Below, piece after piece: positions 1 through 21,722 of a DNA stretch of 64,000 nt. Every line of letters begins with the position of its first letter. Positions within the stretch are counted from its first letter, which is position 1. The notes beneath the pieces are model-generated. The model was given only the letters and a program-made list of their open reading frames with translations, was not told the origin of the DNA and ran no database searches. The translations under genes and the position numbers were made by a program. The stretch comes from Mesodorylaimus sp. YZB2_4. Its lineage: Eukaryota > Nematoda > Enoplea > Dorylaimida > Dorylaimidae. Location of the stretch: assembly GCA_030248295.1 (NCBI GenBank), contig JASANH010000875.1, forward strand, positions 87,244-151,243, written 5' to 3'.

Positions 1-1853
1 GATGCCACAAGTCCTTCGAGTCGTTAAAATTCTTTTCAGGTTCCAAGCCCGCACCCAGTTCGAGAAGTTGCACAGAAGGTAAGGTAGCCAGAGCACTCGT
101 TCAGGAGGCGTCCTTGTTACAAGTTTATTAAACACTACTGTGTGAGCTGTAAATGGTTTTGATTATCGAGGTGAAACTTTGGATTCCAAAAAGTCGACTT
201 CAATACATCAGTGACTCATGCGGATCAATTTGGCCCGTTAGCATGTTCTACGATTTTCCGGCAAATATTTGTAAACGAGCGCCCCTTTTTTTGAATACTG
301 GAGACTAGGGGCGGTGAAACAGGAGCTTTCATTTCAGGGCAGCGGATAGGTTCGCCCTTCACAGATCTGTTTATCTCCCGCTAGTTTATGCAGAAACGCT
401 CCTCCGTTTGTCCTTCCTCAAGCTGATCTGTTAACGGAGGATCGAAGACTTATAGCAGGGCTCTGTTCTCACCTGTGTTTGAGGGATATCAGTCTTGTTT
501 AAATCTTTAAGGATTGAAATGCGGAGAATCAGAAGAGTACCCTGACTTAGTTTCAGAGTTGGCCTTTCCCTAATAAGGCTTCTCTATCTGCGCTGCGTGT
601 CGTATGGATGAAGCATTGAGTTGAAAGTATGGGCGTGGCGGGAGTGAGTTTTTTGGTTCCGCTCCCGCCCACGCCCGCCTGAGCGTCGTATGCTCCCACC
701 CAATCCCGCCCGCGGCTCACCAAAATCACTTTCGCTTACCGCCCGCGACTTTTCCTGCAAGACATTCCCGCTCACTCACACCCGCACTTTAGAAAAACAT
801 GCCCACTCCCGCCCATGAGACAAAAGTCACTCCGACTCCCGCCCGTCCGCAGAGCAAAAGCTATTAAAATCACAGGTACTCTGTCTTAATGCGTAATACC
901 AGCCAAGTAGATAAAACTCACAAGAAATTCAAGGCATAAAAACCAAACTGCCACAAAATCAAGACATTTCAAAGCACTACTTCTTAAAAGTAAAAGGTCA
1001 TCAACATTTTTGGATTCACTTGAGACTGCAGCTTGCATTGTCAAACAGCACAGTTAGACAAAGCACAAATGTGGCGGGAGTATAACGTTTTCGGCGGGAC
1101 CCACACCGCTCCCGCACCCTTGTTGCTTCACTCCCGCTCCCGTCCGTCATTTTTGGAGTCTGCCCCTTCCCGCCGCGGGTCGCATGGACACTCCCGCATT
1201 TGCGACAGCGGCGCACGCCCCTAGAAAGCTCCAATGCGAGAATCTAAAGCAAACATTGAATCTCCTGGTTGGAAACATGTCACTCCCGATAATAAGTCCG
1301 TTGATAAACCCAGCTTCCCAATGGCAATCATCCTTGTCGAACTTTATGTGGGCGTATGAAGTACAAGTGTCCGACATTCTCATCGATGCCACCACCATTA
1401 TTGAGGTGTCCGACTTTCACGTCATTGCCTTCCGCACATGCCATGTCTTTGTCACAGTCCATGACGCTGTTCACGTTTAGTCACTATGGCAATATTGGTA
1501 TGCCTCTCTATTCACTTTAATGACTGGTGTTGGTCTTTGTCCTTTCCGGCTCCCCTCGATGGCTGAAGGAGGGCGAATGAAAGTTACTTTTGTCAAAAGA
1601 AGTTCAGGCGCATGTTTTGTGCTCAAGATCGACAGCATGCCAGCATGGGCCGTTTCATCAGCGTCTCATAGAATAATCAGGCGAGACCTGGCCTGGCAAA
1701 GTCTTGGGTTGATGTTTTACGTGAAAGATTTCGTTTCCCTCAATGTGTATTCAAGGTGTGCTTTACCTAGCTGTACCGATATGAAGTTCTGCAAAGATAT
1801 CTGATCTGTCCTCATTATGCAAACCAAATCATTTTTAGCCCCCCCCTCCAGCA
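1..1853. other. Intergenic, no gene recognised
   Basis: No reading frame here resembles a known protein and none shows a convincing exon pattern. The stretch contains two cytosine-rich low-complexity tracts (listed separately) and otherwise mixed sequence. A pyrimidine-rich stretch ending in AG lies just before the first scramblase start at 1854. Confidence 0.6.
635..1205. repeat. Degenerate CTCCCGCCC-rich tracts
   Basis: Two blocks (about 635-860 and 1075-1205) carry many imperfect copies of CTCCCGCCC or CTCCCGCTC, with the reverse complement GGCGGGAG near 640 and 1073. They are separated by about 210 bases of AT-richer sequence. The copies are scattered with irregular spacing, so this is a low-complexity region and not a neat tandem array. 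Short open frames across it are products of the repeat. Confidence 0.6.
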
Positions 1854-2692
1854 ATGGACATGGCTCAGTATTCAACGTCTCAACCTCAAAATGGTCAGCT
1901 CTATCCCGAAATACAACCAACACAAACCTCTGGCTATCCACAACCGCTCTTTGTATCTCCTGCACCAGAAAATCGAGCACCCATACCACCCGTCATGCCA
2001 GGCCTTGAGCCACTGATAAATGCTCAACAGTTGATTGTTAAACAGAAAAAAGAAATGTTGGAAGTATTTACTGGCTGGGAAGCGAATAATAAATACGAAA
2101 TTTATTCCGAATCTGGTCAACTAGTCTACTTCGCTGTTGAGGATACCAGTGGTTTATCACGCTGCTTTTTCGGTGATGATCGTCCATTTTGCATCCGAAT
2201 TTTTGATGGGCAACGACGTCCACTGGTTGTTTTGACAGCCAATGTGGACTGCTGCACTCAACAAGTCAGCGTACAAGTACCCGAGGGCAATGAAATGGCC
2301 ACCATTTACAAGGAGTTCGCTTTCATGGCGCCATCATTCTTCATCAAGGATAACGCTGGGGCGGTCGCGTTCAAAATAAAATCTCCAATGACAGCTGCTC
2401 TGGGCTCTTTCCGTGATGTGAAATTCGATATTTTAGCAAGTGATCAGAATACGGTGGTTGGTGAGATCTCGAAGAAGTGGGGTGGATTCATCCGCGAGGC
2501 ATTCACCGACGCTGACACATTTGGTGAGATCAAGAGTGGGCGGGTAATTGGTCTACGTTCATGCCTTTCATTTCAGGCATAAGCATTCCAGTCGAAATGG
2601 ACGTCACGTGGAAAGCAGTTCTGTTGGCTGCTTTGTTCCATGTAGATTTTACTTTCTATGAAAAAGCAGCAAACAAAAACCGCCATCATTAA
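1854..2692 (+). CDS. Phospholipid scramblase paralogue 1
   Basis: Predicted phospholipid scramblase, which moves phospholipids between membrane leaflets in a Ca2+-dependent way. Two exons, 1854-2523 and 2577-2692, separated by a 53-base GT..AG intron that splits the Gly codon of the TFG motif; the join gives 261 residues. After a short Pro/Gln-rich N-terminus come the family hallmarks: GLEPL, KQKKEMLEVFTGWE, RPFCIRIFD, the DADTFG Ca2+-binding-like segment near residue 220 and a C-terminal hydrophobic helix (WKAVLLAALFHVDFTFYE). The cysteine cluster seen in vertebrate PLSCR1 is reduced to a CC pair. Position 12 of the Ca2+ segment is Glu, where copies 2 and 4 have Asp. An acceptor-like CTCCAG lies 2 bases before the ATG, so an upstream leader exon or trans-splicing is possible. 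First of four copies on this strand. Confidence 0.93.
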
Positions 2693-5025: not shown

Positions 5026-6133
5026 CTTTGATGAATACTACTTTCAAGAATATGGCCATAAATATTCGAATTTGGCGCCTCGAATGTTTGTGAGCTTATA
5101 GCACTGAGCGAGATCTCTGCTAAGTGGCGGGAACACTACTTCGCTAATGATGCTGATCTCCACGGTGAAATCCAGAGGAATATACTGTATCTACCCTCGG
5201 AGTGCAATAAGACCTGTATCCGAAAGGACTTGTGTATGACTGGGGCCTGCAGTTTTCAAAATTTTGTCATATGCATGCGAGTAGGAGATTGAAGGCTTGT
5301 CCCTTGCATTCGTTCAGTCTGATGACGTGCCCCCTTCTTGAATCATTTCGGCCAAAACATGCCAAAGGTATGCTTCCCCATTCTGATTGAATCACCTTTC
5401 TGTCTACCTTTACGCCCCAGTATTGTATTCATATACGTGTCCGTCACGCCCTGCAAGCATTGCTAGCTCGAAGAATTAATTGTGGGGCTGATCGTGAGAA
5501 AAGCTCATATTGCTACTTTCGTCTCTTTATCCTTTCTATGGCAGCACCAGGTAAGGCCCAACATGCCTCACCATCAGTCATGACCGAAGTTTTGTCAAGT
5601 TCTCGCTGATACTGTATCTTCATATTGGAAGAGTTTATTGCTCTAATTGGCGGTATCCATCAACTCACATCGTCTCACGTCTGTTACCAGTCAACCAACT
5701 CTTCCAGCAGGCATTCATCATCGCAAGCATTCTTTTATTATCTAATAGTTACCTGGACACCTAATGTACGGCTTATGGGCCTTACAGCTGGTTGCGCTGG
5801 ATATGCCCTCGCGCCAACCGATCGATAAAATAGCAAGAACGTGGTACAAAGGAGGCAAACCTGCCAAACGAGTAGGTAGTACCAGCTCGTTTCAGCCGGT
5901 TTTGCTGAAGGAGACGGCGAGTTCGCACGAGCGTTGTAGATAGACAAGAATCCGTACTGGCATCGTGCGAATGCTGCCTAGATATTGACGCGAATGTTTG
6001 CTCATGCTGCCTTTTTTCTAGTACTTTACGAGTACTCTGATTGTCATCGTAATAATCCTTTTCTCTCTTGCCCCGCCCACTGTGTTGATAAAACAATTCA
6101 TCTTTCAGCTCGGACAGAGATATTACAATAATT

Positions 6134-6928
6134 ATGGCCCAGTATTCAACGCAACCTCAAAACGTCAATTTTTATCCTGGGCCACCAGCACCAGGATATG
6201 GACCGAACCCTGGATATCCTCCCCCCGCCGGCTTTGCGCAACCAACTTTTACCAGCCCTGCTCCAGAATATCGACCACCCATGCCATCAATGGTACCAGG
6301 ACTGGAGCCATTGATATATGCGCAACAGCTGATCGTCAAACAAAAGAAAGAAATGATGGAGATCTTCACGGGGTGGGAAAGGAATAATAAATACGAGATA
6401 TATAGTCAGGCTGGTCAGTTGGTCTATTTCGCAGCAGAAGATACCAGTGAGATGTCACTTTGCTTCTTCGGCGAAGATCGCCCCTTTTGCATACGAATTT
6501 TCGATGGTCAGCGCCGCCAGGCCATTGTTTTACGGGCCAATGTGGACTGTTGCACCCAGCAAGTGTCTGTCGAAGTGCCCGAGGGCAATTTGGTGGCCAC
6601 AATTGAAAAAGAGTTCGCCTTCATGACGCCATCATTCTACATTAAGAACAGCCAAGGCGCAGTCATGTTCAAGATCAAGTCACCTATGTCGGCCGCCTTG
6701 GGTTCATTCGGTGATGTCAAATTCGATATTTTGTCAAGTGATCGGCAAACAGTGGTCGGCCAGATATCCAAGCAATGGGGTGGTTTCTTCCGCGAAGCAC
6801 TCACTGATGCTGATACATTCGGGTTGAGTGTCCCAGTGGATATGGATGTCAGCTGGAAAGCAGTCTTGTTGGCTGCCTTGTTCCATATCGATTTCACTTT
6901 CTACGAAAAAAATAACCGAAATCGATAA
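6134..6928 (+). CDS. Phospholipid scramblase paralogue 2
   Basis: Single exon, 264 residues. It has the same core as the 1854 copy: a Pro/Gly/Tyr-rich N-terminus (GPPAPGYGPNPGYPPP), GLEPL, KQKKEMMEIFTGWERNNKY, RPFCIRIFDGQRR, a CC pair in ANVDCCTQQ, MTPSFYIK, KQWGGFFREA, the DADTFG..P.DMDV Ca2+-binding-like segment and the C-terminal helix. It lacks the intron that copies 1 and 3 carry in the TFG codon. Closest in the window to copy 4. A TTTCAG acceptor ends 25 bases before the ATG, suggesting a 5' leader intron or spliced leader site. The Pro-rich N-terminus is typical of scramblases and may bind SH3 or WW partners (family knowledge). Confidence 0.94.
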   Translation: MAQYSTQPQNVNFYPGPPAPGYGPNPGYPPPAGFAQPTFTSPAPEYRPPMPSMVPGLEPLIYAQQLIVKQKKEMMEIFTGWERNNKYEIYSQAGQLVYFAAEDTSEMSLCFFGEDRPFCIRIFDGQRRQAIVLRANVDCCTQQVSVEVPEGNLVATIEKEFAFMTPSFYIKNSQGAVMFKIKSPMSAALGSFGDVKFDILSSDRQTVVGQISKQWGGFFREALTDADTFGLSVPVDMDVSWKAVLLAALFHIDFTFYEKNNRNR

Positions 6929-9115: not shown

Positions 9116-10185
9116 ATGGCCTACCAGGAACGAGGGTCACAGCGTGGCCAGTGTGCCGTTTTTTCAACATCCCTCCTTTTTGCTGGCCTTCCCCTGATAA
9201 CTTATCTAAAGAGTCATCAGGCTCCCATGCACGGCATTGATGCATTGGTGTCCATATCAGCGCGCTCCAAAGTTGAAATCTATAATTCCCAGATCGACGT
9301 ATCACATTTGTCGTTGGTTGGCGGCTACGAAGAGCTCAATCATGTTTCCGACTCCAGGGCTACTTTTTATCCTTTTTCCAAAGTCTCCTGAACACGTAGC
9401 TGATCAAGCGATAAATGAACAATGATCTTGTACTTCATTTTTCTTGTGTTTGAAGTCCCCGTGCACGCCGACTCTGTCATTTTTTGTTTTTCGATTTATG
9501 ATCAATCATTGAATGCTTAGCAACAATCGAAATCTGCCAAGACTTTGTGGCGGTAAATCAGAGATAGAATACTCTCTTCAGTTCAGACCACCCCATTTCA
9601 GTTGGGTACTGGTAGCTGCTATCTCTTTTTATGCTGAATATCAAATTTTAGAGTTCAAAATTAGTTGGCCAAGTTGAACTCGAAAATTTTAGTTTCTATT
9701 TTTTTACTTTTTACGTTTCAGCTTTGAAAGGAACTAAAAAGGGCACGGTGGAAGGCATTCTGAACTGTGGGGAACCAAAAGTTTCTATAGCTCTGAAAAA
9801 TCATATTAGTTGCGAGCGAGCTAGCCTTTTGCGTAGATTTCTTGAACGAAGGTGGAGCCTACTGTATTTGACGTCGCTCAACTTGACTTTTCAGCGGACT
9901 CACACTCAGTGTATTTGAGGAGGTCTTTTGAAAGGGTGGGCAAGGTGGTTTCAGCTTGGGGACTGACCGTGCAGGCTAGCTTAGAGAGGTCTGGTAAATT
10001 TTGTGTATAATTAGTGTGTCCCTTCACCATCAAGTGTGCATGCCTGCCTTCGTTGATGTGCTTATGAGCATGGCGGACTTCGCGGCTATCAGAAAAGCGC
10101 TAGCTAAATTTTCTTCAAACTCTAGACTACCTACTGTGCATGGGAGGTGAAAAATGATTCCTTTTTTAAGCTTGCCAGCGTGCCC

Positions 10186-11093
10186 ATGGATCACCATCCC
10201 AATCGGCCGGTAGAATTTCAACAGCCTGTAGCGCCGGTGCATGGGATGGGGCCAGCTGGTTATCCAGCACCTGGATATGGTCCTGGTCGCTATCCGCCAT
10301 CAAGGTCATTTGGATACGCCCCCTCGGGCTCTCCCCCTCCAATACCGATCGTTAATCGACCACTTTTCACCACCGCACCAGAGAAATACGCTCCAATCCC
10401 AGGAGTGGCGCCTGGTCTCGAGCCGCTTGTGCGAACTCGATTGCTGATGGTGAAGCAGAAAACAGAAGCGCTGGAAATGTTCACGGGGCTTGAAAGAAAT
10501 AACAAATATGAAATATTCAACCAATCTGGTCGTCTTATTTACTACGCTGCCGAGGACACCAGCGAAGCTGCTTTATATTTATTTGGCGAGAATCGTCCAT
10601 TTTGCATCCGAATCTTTGATGAACAACGACGCCAGATCATCGTTCTCAATGCCAATGTCAATTGCTGCACTCAAGAAGTCACAGTGCAAGTGCCAGAAGG
10701 CACTGTGGTGGCTGTGATCGACAGAGACGCAGCCCTGGTCACACCATCATTTTACATAAAGAACACCGCCGGCGCAATCATGTTTAAAATCAAATCACCA
10801 GCAGCAGCAACCTTTGGCTCGTTCCATGACGTGAAATTTGACGTCTTCGCAAACGATCAAAAAACCGTAGTCGGCCAAATATTTAAGCGATTTAGTGGAA
10901 TTGTGCGAGAAAGTTACGGCGACGCTGACACATTCGGTAAGAATCCCTTACGATTAGACCTTTTTCTGTGATGAATTTTACTTCTTTTTAAGGTTTGACT
11001 TTTGCGAACGACATGGAGGCCATGTGGAAAGCGGCTTTGTTGGCTGCGTTGTTTCACATCGATTTCACATTTTATGAAAGGGGTTCAAAATGA
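10186..11093 (+). CDS. Phospholipid scramblase paralogue 3
   Basis: Two exons, 10186-10936 and 10993-11093, with a 56-base intron at exactly the same phase-1 position in the TFG codon as copy 1; 283 residues. Start chosen at MDHHPN, the first ATG of the frame. The N-terminus is Pro/Gly/Tyr-rich, and the core is conserved (GLEPL, FTGLERNNKYEIF, RPFCIRIFDEQRRQIIVL). This is the most diverged copy: the usual GW is GL, MTPSF is VTPSF, and the Ca2+ segment reads DADTFGLTFANDMEA, having lost the Pro and the second acidic pair present in copies 2 and 4. The C-terminal helix (WKAALLAALFHIDFTFYE) is intact. Scramblase identity is clear; whether Ca2+ response is kept is open. Confidence 0.92.
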
Positions 11094-14628: not shown

Positions 14629-17545
14629 ATGGCTAGTTGCCCAGTCCGGGCAGAATCCGCTCGAAGCATACAAAGTTCTTGGAGCCAAAAACGTATTTGG
14701 GCGTCCATAACTGGTAAAAATCAATCGATTGCGAAAAATTTGAAATTAATTTTTTTGACTTTTTTGCCCCTCTCCGTGGTGGTCGGCTTGTGTGCGAAAA
14801 CCTTATTGACTGCAAATGCTGACATCGAATCAATCACACGGGTTGAACAGAGTGTGAAGAGGAGTCAAAAGATCGGAAGCTTGGTTTCAGCATTATTAAA
14901 CGAAAGGGGCCTCAAATGCCAGTTTTTGGCACGCAAAGATGCGTAAGTGATACTTTTACCTGCTGCGCCCCATTTTCACCTGGGATTTCATATCATTTCC
15001 GTTGAAGAAGTATCTAAAATCCTTCAGCATTTGCTTATAGATCGGATCAATACCTACAGCGCGTCGTATTCGAGGCCGAACAAGCCACAGATGACATTCT
15101 GTTTGCGGTGCAGCCTATCCTGCCACAATCTCTTACTAATTTATGGCGGTCAGTGCACGAATTCCGATTCAATCTGCGAACACAGCAAGTCTCATTTACT
15201 TGTGGGGATGTAACAAGGTAAATGTTTATGATTCACTGCGTCAAAGCAGATATACTCCTTCTTTCTAGCTGGTACTCGAACATTACCTCCATACTAATAA
15301 AAGAGTGCGCATCACCTCTCACTAATTCCGACGATACTGGTTCATTCTGGACATCCTACTTCGCTTACAGCGCTGTCATAACAGCTAAGGATATGCTTGG
15401 TATGCCTGATGTTTTCTTATTAGCACGCAAACGAGCTCGGTGTGCCGCATGATATACGAGATCGTTGCAACGGTGTTTTGCTCAAATTATTGATTACCAA
15501 AGAACAGAAACACAAAGTTTTTCGCAAATTGGATATTTTCTAAAAATTTATTATACCCTGAACATGACTCCTCATTGCAGGACTGCAAAGAGCCCTTGGT
15601 TCGAGTTTTTTTTCATACGCTGCGCTCAGTCCAAAGAACTTTGTGGATTTTGCAGGTGAGTTTTCGTCTAATTTTAATTTCTAAAGTTTTTCATTCAATT
15701 GTTTGTCTTTTTTTCGGCTTTCACTTTATATACAAACAAGAAATATTGACGAAAATTCTTTTTAACGCCGTCATGTTTCTTCAAAAAACAGCACTATGGG
15801 CAGGGTTATTGTTGAGTTGAGCGCGCGAATTCAAATTTTAAATCTGAAATATGAATGCTGATGAAGTTGGCATCGTTAGTTAGTTAAACTTTCAGGAAAC
15901 GATGGAGCTGCAAGCGCATTATTGGACAGCATAGCATTCACTCTGAGTAAACCAGTCTCACTTCTCTACTCGAACCTAACCAACACCAACAGTGGTCTGG
16001 TAGAGCATATTCGGAATTCAGTCGACCTCATCTACTCGAATAGCACAGGCACAACTGAACCGCAATCAAGTCTGGCCTGGTTCACCGACATGTCCGACTA
16101 TATCGATCGTGTCATCCAAAGTGTCGAAGTATTCCTCCGCGACGACATGTCCAAGAGTACAGTCGAGAAAAGACGAGCGCGAAAACTTGAATTCGATGCT
16201 ACTTTGGTAACCGTCGTTTTGGTGATGATTATCAGTCCAATATTCGCACTCTGGTACGCTATCGGATCCAGACGCCTGATCCAGCGAATTGGACATCACA
16301 TGCAAATAATGCAGGAACAAAAATCCTTGCTGACAATTGAAAAGAAAAAAGGTCATTTGCTGCTTTGCCAAATGTTACCTAGACAAATAGTCGAGGCGTT
16401 GGCTGCAAATGCACCTGTGAATCCTGAGTTATTTGAAGAGGCCACAATACTCTTCAGTCGCGTCTACGATTTTGGGGATTTAGTAATAAAATGTGAGCCA
16501 GTCCAGGTAAGTTCATGCCATTTTATTGCACTTCGATTATTGAAGTTTCCCTGTGGAAGGCGAAACTTGGGTTCAGTAGGCACATTCGACGGTGGCAAGC
16601 TCAAGTCGGCAAACTTACTGTAATTTTTAAGTTGTATCTCACGATCAGCACATCTTTCACCTTTTTCCAAATATCTTGCATTACTACGTGCAGAAACGCT
16701 TCAGAGATCGTGCAAGCCAGAATCATAAGCACGTAAATATAATCAGTTTCACCTGTGCAAAATAAAACACGCAAGTCTGAGCCGTCATTTCAAATATTTC
16801 GTACTGCAAGAAAGTAGCCTTTAAACAAGGACTTTGGCGCATATTCGAAGGGGAGAAACTTTAAAGCAAAAATGTTGCGTAACTGGTCGCTTTCAGGTGG
16901 TAACATTTCTCAACCAGCTCTACACAATGTGTGACGGCATCCTAGATCAATATGATGCGTACAAGGTGGAGACTATCGGCGACACGTATTTAGTGGTCAG
17001 TGGTGCACCCAAAAGGAATGGACTGCAACACAGCGCTGAGATTGCTACCATTGCGTTGCATGTTATGATGGGTGCCACTGAATTGTCAGTGGCTGGCTTG
17101 GCTGGTGAGCAAATCCGATTGGCCGTAGGTATTTGCACTGGTAAGATCATCAGTATTTCTGGTTGGAGCAGACGAAATAGAGGCTGTTTTCAGGACCTAT
17201 TGTGGCTGGTGTGATGGGAGTCAAGAACCAACGCTATTGCCTGTTTGGCGACACAGTGAATACTGCATCGAGAATGATGTCTTGCGCGCCTGGTAATATC
17301 TCCATTTTTTCCAATTCGGGTTTCAGGAAGTTATTCTCGTTTTTTTAGCATCACGCATTCAACTCAGTCCCAGGGCTGCTGAGCATCTAAACACTTACCA
17401 CAGAAAGCAATTCGTGACACGTCCTCGGGGCACGATAGAAATCAAAGGAAAAGGCACGATGAAAACGCATTGGCTTGTACGAAAAGAGGGATTCCCTTTT
17501 TCGATATCTCTGGAAGAAAAACCATTTGAAATTCGCGTTGACTAA
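14629..17545 (+). CDS. NIT-domain membrane guanylate cyclase
   Basis: Eight exons (14629-14942, 15041-15217, 15269-15399, 15581-15655, 15896-16506, 16897-17140, 17194-17292, 17349-17545) join in frame to 615 residues. Layout: membrane segment about 39-60 ([17 protein letters not shown]), extracellular NIT (nitrate/nitrite-sensing type) domain about 65-325 with LLNERG and [10 protein letters not shown] motifs, second membrane segment about 335-355, signalling helix about 360-410, class III cyclase 413-600. Guanylate-type residues are present: [24 protein letters not shown]. There is no kinase-homology or haem domain. Oddity: the first metal-binding Asp of the usual FSD motif is Arg421 ([10 protein letters not shown]). 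Known NIT cyclases make cGMP in nitric oxide or related signalling; the ligand here is inferred. A TTTAG acceptor ends 20 bases before the chosen ATG. Confidence 0.88.
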
Positions 17546-18051: not shown

Positions 18052-19590
18052 TCACTTCTTGGACTTCTTGCCTGGCACCAGCTTCTTTTGTGAGCTGGCA
18101 CTTTTCTTGTCCGACGATTTGCTCATTCCAGACTTGGACTTGGGCGACTTGGATTTCGAAGCTTTTCGCGATTCAGGCTTCTGTTGACTGCGCAGACTGG
18201 CCGACATTTGCGCATCTTTCCCAGGTTTCTTACCGGCTTGCTGGAGCGCAAACGACTGAGCCGTCCCTTCACCCTGACTGTACAAGCTGGCGGCTGTGTT
18301 GTCGTCTTTACCAGGCTTCTTGCCAGTTTGTCCAAGAGCGAACGATTGCGCCCCTCCTTGACTGTACAAGCTGGCCGACATGTTGGCATCTTTGCCTTCA
18401 ACTTTCTTTCCAGGCAACATCTCCGATTTGGCCCGGCTCGATTTCGTCGCTTCCTTCGCGGACTTTTTCTTCAGCAGTTCTTTCTGCTTCTGTTCCCTTT
18501 GCCTGCGTCGTCGGACGCGGATGGCGACAAACACGACGATGGCGATGAGCAAGAGCAAGCCGATCAGCGTGCAGATCACGATCAAAGCGATGCCACGACC
18601 CGTCAGCTTGCCCTCGTCATCATAGATGCCCTTGGGGCCTGGCTTGGCTCCGCCCGGGCAAGGAGTGGGGCACTGGATGAGTCGCGATTTGGGGCACGTT
18701 TTAGCCACTTCTTTGAATGCTTTGAGCGCGTCACTCGATCGGCTCACGTTTACTTGACCGCACTGATCAGATCGGCACGAATTCTGCGCCCACGGCCATG
18801 CTTGATCGCACACGGAAGTGCACGCTTCTTTGTCGCAGCTGGCCTCGCTGGCAGACGGTTTTGTGTTTTTGCATTTGGAGGCATCGCCGAACGAAGTGTA
18901 TGGACGGATCCAGTGACCCTTGCATTCTTCATTGGCTTCGAACTTGCAGATCTCCTCGAAATGGCACACCAGACGCTGAGGGATGTCCGTTTTCAGTTTG
19001 TCGAAGTCGGCCGTATCGAAGACTTGTGTTGGATCGCCAGTCAAGTTGGTGACACGTTCCCCGCCGATCGTGTGATTCCACGGATCAAGCATGGCGTACA
19101 CGATGATCCCGCGTTTGTGCAAAGCAGCGGCCGCGGTGACTTCGGACGGGTGTAGACGAGCTCCAGTCGTCGTGAACAAGATGATCAACTTGGCCACGCC
19201 GAATCGAGCGCCAGCGAAGACGGTCTTGGTAGCTGCGTTCAAAGCGAGCGGCAAGTCGTAGTAGTTGTAGTCGGTCCGCTTGATCGTCGCGACTGTCAAA
19301 TCGCGCAGTGTGGCTTCCTTGTCTGTCAATTCAGACAGCACTTTCGAGTCGCTGTTTTCGTAGACGATCAGCCCGATTCGACTGCCATTGTTTCCTTCCA
19401 AGGCAAAATGATCCGGAATCGAACGCACGCTTTGCCAAGCCCGCACTCGCTCAGATTCAGCCATCGAGTCAGAATCTTCAATGATCGAGACGATCTCCAG
19501 AGGAATGGCGATTTTCTCAATCCCGTAGACGATGACTGAGAAGCAGGAGATCAGCAAGACCACCAGAATCGACGTCAAGCTAGCTTTCAT
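18052..19590 (-). CDS. VWA-domain single-pass membrane protein
   Basis: Intronless, 512 residues. Signal peptide 1-23; von Willebrand factor A-like fold about 28-205 (LEIVSIIEDSDSM, then RIGLIVYENS and AKLIILFTTTGARLHP); a Cys-rich spacer 209-311 with about 15 cysteines; transmembrane helix 333-357; then a basic tail starting RVRRRRQREQKQ. The tail holds about three copies of a roughly 30-residue unit (ASLYSQG..AQSFAL..GKKPGKD, from 399, 428 and 458) and ends in Lys/Ser-rich sequence. The metal-site motif is ExSxS (E38, S40, S42), not DxSxS, so metal-dependent ligand binding may be altered. Coding GC and third-position GC look higher than in neighbours. It may be an adhesion receptor; I know no named orthologue. 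Confidence 0.85.
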   Translation of the reverse strand: MKASLTSILVVLLISCFSVIVYGIEKIAIPLEIVSIIEDSDSMAESERVRAWQSVRSIPDHFALEGNNGSRIGLIVYENSDSKVLSELTDKEATLRDLTVATIKRTDYNYYDLPLALNAATKTVFAGARFGVAKLIILFTTTGARLHPSEVTAAAALHKRGIIVYAMLDPWNHTIGGERVTNLTGDPTQVFDTADFDKLKTDIPQRLVCHFEEICKFEANEECKGHWIRPYTSFGDASKCKNTKPSASEASCDKEACTSVCDQAWPWAQNSCRSDQCGQVNVSRSSDALKAFKEVAKTCPKSRLIQCPTPCPGGAKPGPKGIYDDEGKLTGRGIALIVICTLIGLLLLIAIVVFVAIRVRRRRQREQKQKELLKKKSAKEATKSSRAKSEMLPGKKVEGKDANMSASLYSQGGAQSFALGQTGKKPGKDDNTAASLYSQGEGTAQSFALQQAGKKPGKDAQMSASLRSQQKPESRKASKSKSPKSKSGMSKSSDKKSASSQKKLVPGKKSKK

Positions 19591-21722
19591 TTTTTCACGC
19601 TTTTACGCTTTCACTGCTGGCTGAATTTCAACCCAACCGCCAAGCATGAAAACAAGAGAGAGAATGCGAATGCCCGCGGATCAGCCCGAACGCTGGCGCA
19701 GATTGCTGTACTGTGCTTAGTGCAGTGTAAAGTTTATTAGAACACATTATTCCTGAGTCTGTTGGTGTTGTGCCGCTTGGGGAAGGGGCCTGGAATTCTT
19801 GGGGGTGAGGCTCTAGTATATAGTTGCTTCAGTAGGGAGGAGCCAGGGCGGTGTAAGAGCTGGCCGCCGAGAGAGATCGGCGCTCTCCCTTGCTCTTTCT
19901 CACTCGATTCGGGTTCATCTGTTTTGTTCTGAATTTGTGGGGAGCCACCCTTGTGTTGTCCACCCCATTGGCAGAACTGTGGGGGCAGGCCAGGCGCCAG
20001 CCAGGGACCTCGATTAGCATACTATCAAAGGGCCTCTGCGGTCGTCGTTCCCTTTGGTTCTTACTGGAAGAGTCCAGGAGTTGACTCCACGGCAGGTGCT
20101 TGGTTCGTCTGCGGATTTGACTGTATGTAAGATCTAGGACTGTTGAGAATCGTCGTGCATTGTTGTGCTTCGTAAAGGATCCTCTGGTGTTGACTTGGGT
20201 CTTTACTGCGCCATCGACAGTGGAACTGTTCGCCAGCGTTGGCAGCTTAGGACCAGGTGCATTCGACCAGCAGCCAGGCTAGCGTTGCACAGAGCAGTTG
20301 CAGGCACCCTTGGGAGGCGCGGCGAACACGCCTGAGCGGTTTGTTGAGGAATCGGGGTCTTAGTGATCGATACGCTGCAGGAATAAGCCTTTCTACCAGG
20401 CTTGGGCTATTGAAGACCTTGGACCTCTCGCTTGTAAGATCATCCTGAACCCGCCGGTACGAGAGCGAAGAAGAGCTGTCGCACTCTCGCAAACAACACT
20501 CATAAAACTGGGATAACGATCCCTGGTCAATATTATGTATTTCGAGCAGGTCCCGGGCAGGAAAACTTCATGATTGTGCTTGAGGGGGGACTTTCCAGAG
20601 GGATTAAAACGTGCAATGCATACTGAATGCAAGTTCTAATTGTGACAAGTCAATAGATGGCAGGAAAAAGGTCGCACGATCGCAAGATTGCAACAAAAGA
20701 ATCACAAGGGTGAAAAAGTCGGGTCGAAAGATTGATGGCTCAAAATATAACTTGGTGTATGTGGCGGAGCGAAGACTGATTGAACAATGGTTGCAATAAA
20801 CGCCATAGATTTTACATTCTATCCTGAAATTACCTCATCGTACTATTGAGGGCTGCGCGAAAGCAATATTGCATATACCAATCCTGCCCGTCGAAAAAAA
20901 TCAAAATCCGACTAGGACCGTCGCTGCTGTCACGTAATGTAATAAAAACTGTTGGCAGCCGCTCCATAATAGATTGGTGGAAGTTGGCCTTGCACGGCAG
21001 CTGACAACCCAGCCGTCACTGCACCAATTTTAAGTTCTACTTACAGTACCTTAGAAGGACGATTTTACTACTAAAGTAAGTAGTCTACAGAGTATGTGCT
21101 GTGTCTGGGTCTGCACTCATGAAATCCCTCATTTTCAATAGTATAGGCATGGCCAAGCCTGTAGACTAATTGCTTTTAACCAGACATATGCGCAAATATC
21201 GATTTAGAGATCTCTCGTATTTAATCACTTGATTATTTTAGTAATCAACTTTTTAGGACGTGACGTATGGATGCCACTGCTTTTCACTTCTATCTGCGTC
21301 ATGTGAGCATGTGCACCATGGCAGCGCAACTCCCTTATCGCTCACATCATCCATGGTCAACAGGTTAATTACACGATTGTTCATCGCGAACAATCGGATT
21401 GGTGCTAGCTTTTACCTGGCGCAGGAGACCATTGGTTACCTATCATTCGCTCTGGCGACATGAACTGGTTGCTGTTTCTTCGCCTCTGATCAATAAGCAG
21501 ACGGGAACTGAAACGAGCTATGTTGGATTTGCACATTCGAAGCCTTGGTAAATAGGTTAGTGCCTAAAATATAGATCAGTCGGGCGGCTGTGAGGCGTAG
21601 TAAGAGTAGGTCCTGCTATTTGGTGTGGCCTTCATTGGGTATAGGGCTATTTGGCGCTACAGCATGTTTCTTAGACAAAGTTTCTTTTAGTTTCCACTTT
21701 TTAGGAACCAGAAGCTGTTAGA
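19591..21722. other. Intergenic, no gene recognised
   Basis: Contains GC-richer sequence at 19740-20500 and AT-richer sequence after 20600. I see no recognisable domain, no tRNA and no clear repeat. A TTTTTAG acceptor ends at 21704, 19 bases before the next scramblase start. Confidence 0.5.

Follow-up and report, generated by a model that had tools for sequence, protein, structure and literature searches.

The window, the whole stretch of 64,000 nucleotides analysed here, corresponds to C223:87244-151243 in the 145 Mb, 1067-contig genome assembly of Mesodorylaimus sp. YZB2_4. Its forward strand carries, at positions 14629-17545, a gene of eight exons encoding a protein of 615 amino acids. When the start and stop were fixed and the other exon ends were left free by up to 6 bases around our guesses, exactly one splice combination gave an open frame, and all seven introns are GT-AG; the eight in-frame exons proposed in the first-pass annotation were thereby recovered. 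The features of the gene, in window coordinates and with transmembrane helices placed by eye, are as follows.

14629-14942, forward strand: exon 1, with the predicted start Met, the first transmembrane helix (residues 38-60), the start of the NIT domain, and conserved Arg93
15041-15217, forward strand: exon 2, NIT domain
15269-15399, forward strand: exon 3, NIT domain
15581-15655, forward strand: exon 4, NIT domain with conserved Arg211 (GLQRALG)
15896-16506, forward strand: exon 5, with the end of the NIT domain, the second transmembrane helix (residues ~333-355), the linker, and the start of the cyclase domain with FSR
16459-16461, forward strand: codon CGC of Arg421, at the first metal-ligand position
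16897-17140, forward strand: exon 6, with Glu461 (guanine) and Asp465 (second metal ligand)
17194-17292, forward strand: exon 7, with Cys533 (guanine), Asn540 and Arg544 (transition state)
17349-17545, forward strand: exon 8, the end of the cyclase domain with Lys583, and the stop codon

Pfam placed an NIT domain (PF08376) at residues 85-317 (E 1.5e-16; 62 bits against a cut-off of 24.9) and Guanylate_cyc at residues 409-594 (E 2.1e-52). The order along the protein is therefore helix, NIT domain, helix, linker, and C-terminal guanylate cyclase, with the helices recognised by eye, and this agrees with the architecture claimed earlier, including its lack of a kinase-homology domain. The Pfam list, taken to E 10 but thinned by the HMMER filters above approximately 0.1, contained no kinase family. 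HNOB was likewise not found in that list, and only the last 42 positions of HNOBA were matched (17.3 bits against a cut-off of 23.4), so that the HNOB haem domain and full HNOBA of a soluble guanylate cyclase are both lacking. The HNOBA tail, which exceeded the cut-off in two of five paralogues, is the linker helix. The excerpted text of PMC7400543 gives the same layout, with NIT between two transmembrane helices and a C-terminal cyclase, for animal NIT cyclases including those of Trichoplax and NIT-GC1 and NIT-GC2 of Platynereis, and a 2006 study pointed out NIT cyclases of insects and sea urchins that contain a signalling helix (excerpted text of PMC1592074). Platynereis NIT-GC1 is required for NO feedback in larvae (PMC10584369).

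NIT domains have two conserved interface arginines that are thought to bind the ligand, according to the same excerpt of PMC7400543. A profile built from the NIT domains of six of the nematode proteins gave a weak match to NasR (4akk; E 0.0079), in which Arg93 and Arg211 align with the arginines of NasR CERG and GQERALG. Since both arginines are kept, the predicted extracellular NIT domain probably responds to nitrate, nitrite, or a related anion. An exon-wise search of the genome for the NO synthase oxygenase family, in an assembly that may have gaps, was negative at both E limits used, 0.001 and 10, which weakens a reading based on NO; the control for this search was positive in 2 of 14 genomes, both of them bacterial, in a set holding no animals. 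Cyclases of the HNOBA type are present in the genome even though NO synthase was unmatched.

In class III cyclases the active site is built at the interface of two subunits. One subunit gives two metal-binding Asp residues, both of which are used in class III chemistry, and the opposite subunit gives the guanine-reading Glu and Cys, an Asn/Arg pair, and a Lys. In the window protein, Arg421 stands at metal position 1 instead of Asp, confirming the earlier description of FSR in place of FSD, and the alignment bore out the retention of the second Asp, Glu, Cys, Asn, and Arg (D465, E461, C533, N540, and R544), with K583 kept as well. Owing to Arg421, the protein does not have the two Asp per subunit of a self-sufficient homodimeric class III cyclase; it does have the guanine Glu and Cys and the transition-state Asn and Arg. 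Loss of the first Asp with the base-reading and Asn/Arg half present is the beta-type pattern. Soluble guanylate cyclase is a haem NO sensor without an NIT domain or membrane helices. Its beta-1 subunit shares the pattern; in our alignment, 6jt0_B retains, like the FSR proteins, the second Asp together with the base-reading and Asn/Arg half, but has Gly rather than Arg at position 1.

We then surveyed the cyclases of the genome. The PF00211 search gave 118 exon-level matches, and 45 stretches, at least one from each contig with a match and some of them short, were aligned together with the window gene (46 rows) using a spliced aligner written for the analysis, which recovered the same exons for the window gene. 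Where a stretch held two or more cyclase domains, the best one represented it, and a few matches lay outside the stretches (e.g. C265:74472 and C188:54634). The residue at metal position 1 was legible in 44 of the 46 rows: Asp in 36, Arg in 2, Lys in 2, Asn in 2, Ser in 1, and Val in 1. With Asp in 36 of 44 readable stretches, Arg is an exception. It occurs in the window gene and in one paralogue (L025), which lies on a separate contig, C474, and encodes Arg by a different codon, CGA, making a base-call error unlikely. Both FSR proteins lack the first metal Asp and the loop motif after it (RVYDF, RVDEF), and the other active-site residues (Glu, second Asp, Cys, Asn, and Arg) are present in all 10 instances across the two. 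As a separate observation, five guanylate cyclase loci (L023, L027, L028, L036, and L042) have Val for the guanine-reading Glu (KVVTIGDGYM or near) with Cys kept, and form one clade (100/98).

At least seven of the loci are NIT cyclases: the window gene, its upstream neighbour on C223, two genes on C474, and one each on C111, C180, and C17. The NIT domain was over the cut-off in all six that were scanned against Pfam, and the C17 gene has an NIT-like N-terminus by spliced alignment. Searched exon by exon across the genome, the NIT family reached only two of the seven loci (C111 and C180), and the remainder were found through their cyclase exons. In six of the seven models (the window gene and five paralogues), the exon bearing FSD or FSR is 611-617 nt long and the next two are 244 and 99 nt; the corresponding exons of the seventh, on C17, are 623, 247, and 99 nt. 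As to whether Arg is shared among NIT cyclases, a check suggested in the first-pass annotation, two of the seven in this genome have it and most do not.

Both FSR genes are preceded, on the same strand, by an FSD NIT cyclase gene, so that a paralogue with intact FSD, also suggested there as a check, is present upstream of each. The paralogue coordinates below are those of the aligned parts, and the true ends may extend somewhat further.

C474:29626-32673: FSD gene (C474a), 2.3 kb upstream of the C474 FSR gene and on the same strand, from spliced alignment
C474:35006-37823: FSR gene (C474b, L025), aligned part
C223:74170-77832: FSD gene, 24 kb upstream of the window gene and on the same strand, from spliced alignment
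C223:101872-104788, forward strand: the window FSR gene

Both FSD neighbours keep all six residues, including Asn and Arg. The PF00211 search gave no second cyclase match on contigs C111, C180, and C17, which hold three of the five non-Arg NIT cyclases, and the pairing of neighbours is therefore not general. The simplest history would be a tandem duplication into FSD and FSR genes followed by duplication of the whole pair. Between the FSD gene of C223 and the window gene, in an intervening stretch that was read except for 81001-87243, lie three tandem Scramblase open frames (window 1839-2582, 6092-6928, and 10126-10971, forward strand; E 4e-39 to 4e-56), and a piece in L011 resembles these by eye. 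On the other side of the window gene, 18052-19602 on the reverse strand is a single open frame of 516 amino acids that encodes a von Willebrand A domain (E 2.3e-8). By eye, its product also has what looks like a transmembrane segment and a tail rich in Lys and Ser in which SLYSQ-type units recur.

Elsewhere in the assembly, L056 (C73:253310-254674) is a COX1 of mitochondrial type within a 488-kb contig. Its frame stays open under code 5, with AGA/AGG as Ser and AAA kept at a conserved Lys, a usage that fits a protostome according to the genetic code tables. Further COX1 pieces are found on other contigs, which points to nuclear copies or a misjoin.

The cyclase tree was built from 37 of the 46 rows; nine that were partial, near-duplicate, or adenylate-type were dropped, and three other adenylate-type rows were retained. 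The seven NIT loci form one clade (100/99), within which the rows split into the FSR genes (window and C474b), the FSD genes (C223 upstream and C474a) together with the degenerate C17, and C111 with C180. Support for the FSR clade was 100/95 in the cyclase tree, 99/91 with nine motif residues masked, and 93/95 at full length. The group of FSD genes and C17 received 98/86 and 100/90 in the cyclase trees, and the full-length tree did not resolve the two FSD neighbours as one group. Because dS was saturated, pS and pN were compared and no dN/dS ratio was taken. Between the two FSR genes, pS was 0.79 (saturated) and pN 0.28 in the cyclase region, and the NIT region gave 0.80 and 0.42. The cyclase pN between FSR and FSD genes was 0.288-0.320, close to the 0.283 between the FSR genes, which could place the two splits at about the same time. 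Since the FSR pair is one clade even with the motif masked, its synonymous divergence is saturated, and the five other residues are kept, the Arg substitution appears to be old. The longer branch of the window gene (0.58 against 0.26 for the other FSR gene in the cyclase tree) could mean relaxed constraint. At only three positions, 223, 402, and 421, do the two FSR proteins agree on one residue while the remaining four proteins agree on a different one, counting columns filled in all six rows, with C111 and C180 entering from exon 4 on and C17 left out.

Other cyclases in this genome also depart from the full residue set. The HNOBA-type loci on C117 (L031) and C188 (L051) carry Lys at metal position 1, with the second Asp replaced by Glu; C117 retains the guanine-reading Glu together with Cys, Asn, and Arg, and C188, which was read up to the second metal position only, also retains the guanine-reading Glu. 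A third HNOBA-type locus, on C3, has both Asp and Ala for Asn, and two on C5 keep all six residues. By this pattern only, C188 and C117 would be beta-like and C3 alpha-like; the best PDB matches by score for C117 and C3 are natriuretic peptide receptor chains. Among the NIT cyclases, C180 (L022, C180:118000-127500) has both metal Asp and Thr/Lys (TVTTASK) for the catalytic Asn/Arg. The C17 gene (L043/L057, C17:365857-368695) has open frames, with Val at position 1, the second Asp changed to Ser, the catalytic Arg changed to Glu, and the first NIT Arg absent.

The soluble enzyme is not the only heterodimer to which the FSR protein can be likened. The fungal rhodopsin guanylyl cyclase NeoR/RGC1 is a membrane heterodimer with one working site, for which RGC1 gives the base-reading residues and NeoR the metal Asp (excerpted text of PMC12264004, as for the statements on NeoR and RGC1 that follow). 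NeoR is without NxxxR and has Thr and Lys instead, the same change as in the C180 NIT cyclase. The D379A change in RGC1 raised light-triggered activity ninefold, and this engineered loss is of the Asp that FSR proteins naturally lack; the sensor, however, is a rhodopsin, and both fungal subunits naturally keep metal Asp. Activity was not restored when Asn and Arg were put back into NeoR, which cautions that residue lists alone do not settle activity. Save for those stated in PMC12264004, the roles of active-site residues used here follow general knowledge of class III cyclases. Among receptor cyclases, ODR-1/DAF-11 of C. elegans has been described as an obligate heterodimer to which both monomers contribute essential residues (excerpted text of PMC5225109), a likeness that we draw by description and not by residues. 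The excerpted descriptions of animal NIT cyclases, compared with the window protein by description and not by alignment, mention neither a lost metal Asp nor an NIT heterodimer. Among the literature matches listed, no title or abstract opening concerned an NIT cyclase with a lost metal ligand or NIT heterodimers, nor did the excerpts of PMC1435932 and PMC11412693.

With moderate confidence, we interpret the FSR protein as a receptor-type NIT guanylate cyclase subunit specialised for heterodimers with one active site. Most receptor cyclases are described as homodimers, and ODR-1/DAF-11 has no NIT domain. The FSR subunit would give the base-reading and transition-state half, and an FSD partner would supply the metals. 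With the first Asp and part of the following loop lost, the metal site of the FSR subunit itself should not bind Mg-GTP. The candidate partner is most simply the product of the upstream FSD gene on C223, and C111 or C180 could also serve. Of the two sites of the dimer, one would then work and the other be dead or regulatory, as in soluble guanylate cyclase; as the second site could not bind nucleotide, release from the damping proposed for NeoR/RGC1 is predicted. A heterodimer had been offered as one option in the first-pass annotation, and it is strengthened by the half-site that the protein keeps and by the related split in the soluble-type cyclase loci of the genome. The heterodimer is not forced, since the FSD neighbours keep Asn and Arg and may work alone. 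Also against it, the C223 pair is 24 kb apart with scramblase genes between, and Asp465 would be superfluous for a pure half-site donor, although soluble beta-1 keeps this residue too. The lack of a neighbouring cyclase match on C111, C180, and C17, the near-equal pN within the FSR pair and between FSR and FSD genes, the longer branch of the window gene, and the unresolved FSD neighbours in the full-length tree count against it as well.

The other option of that annotation, a non-catalytic role, now seems less likely. The FSR protein would in this case pair with FSD cyclases to lower or gate their activity, or act as a decoy receptor, while giving no catalytic residue. The absence of the metal Asp and loop motif from both FSR proteins, the existence of a degenerate NIT cyclase on C17, and the long branch of the window gene fit such a role, but we judge it unlikely, as all 10 other residues were kept across saturated synonymous divergence whereas C17 changed two of five. 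A weakly or unusually active FSR homodimer, for instance with Asp465 alone holding the metal or with another nucleotide as substrate, is distinctly improbable: Asp465 and the full base-reading set are indeed present in both FSR proteins, but class III chemistry uses both Asp, and Arg brings a positive charge to the place of the metal. That the substitution reflects a faulty gene model, a misassembly, or a recent pseudogene is barely credible. Chance or artefact was rejected on the single in-frame splice solution, the exon pattern common to the paralogues, the Arg encoded by another codon on another contig, and the divergence pattern; a recent pseudogene was rejected because nonsynonymous divergence is low relative to the saturated synonymous divergence.

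Returning to the FSR protein as a heterodimer subunit, we tentatively suggest that NIT cyclases acquired a heterodimeric division of labour independently, with an FSR lineage for base reading and the transition state paired with FSD genes, and a metal-only C180 lineage resembling NeoR. The natural Arg might then shut the second site and leave a single-site receptor that is permanently disinhibited. A subunit that has long carried, in nature, the change found to be activating in engineered NeoR/RGC1 would serve as a test of whether the second site is regulatory in membrane cyclases, and the NIT cyclases, whose ligand is unsettled, would gain a combinatorial dimension.
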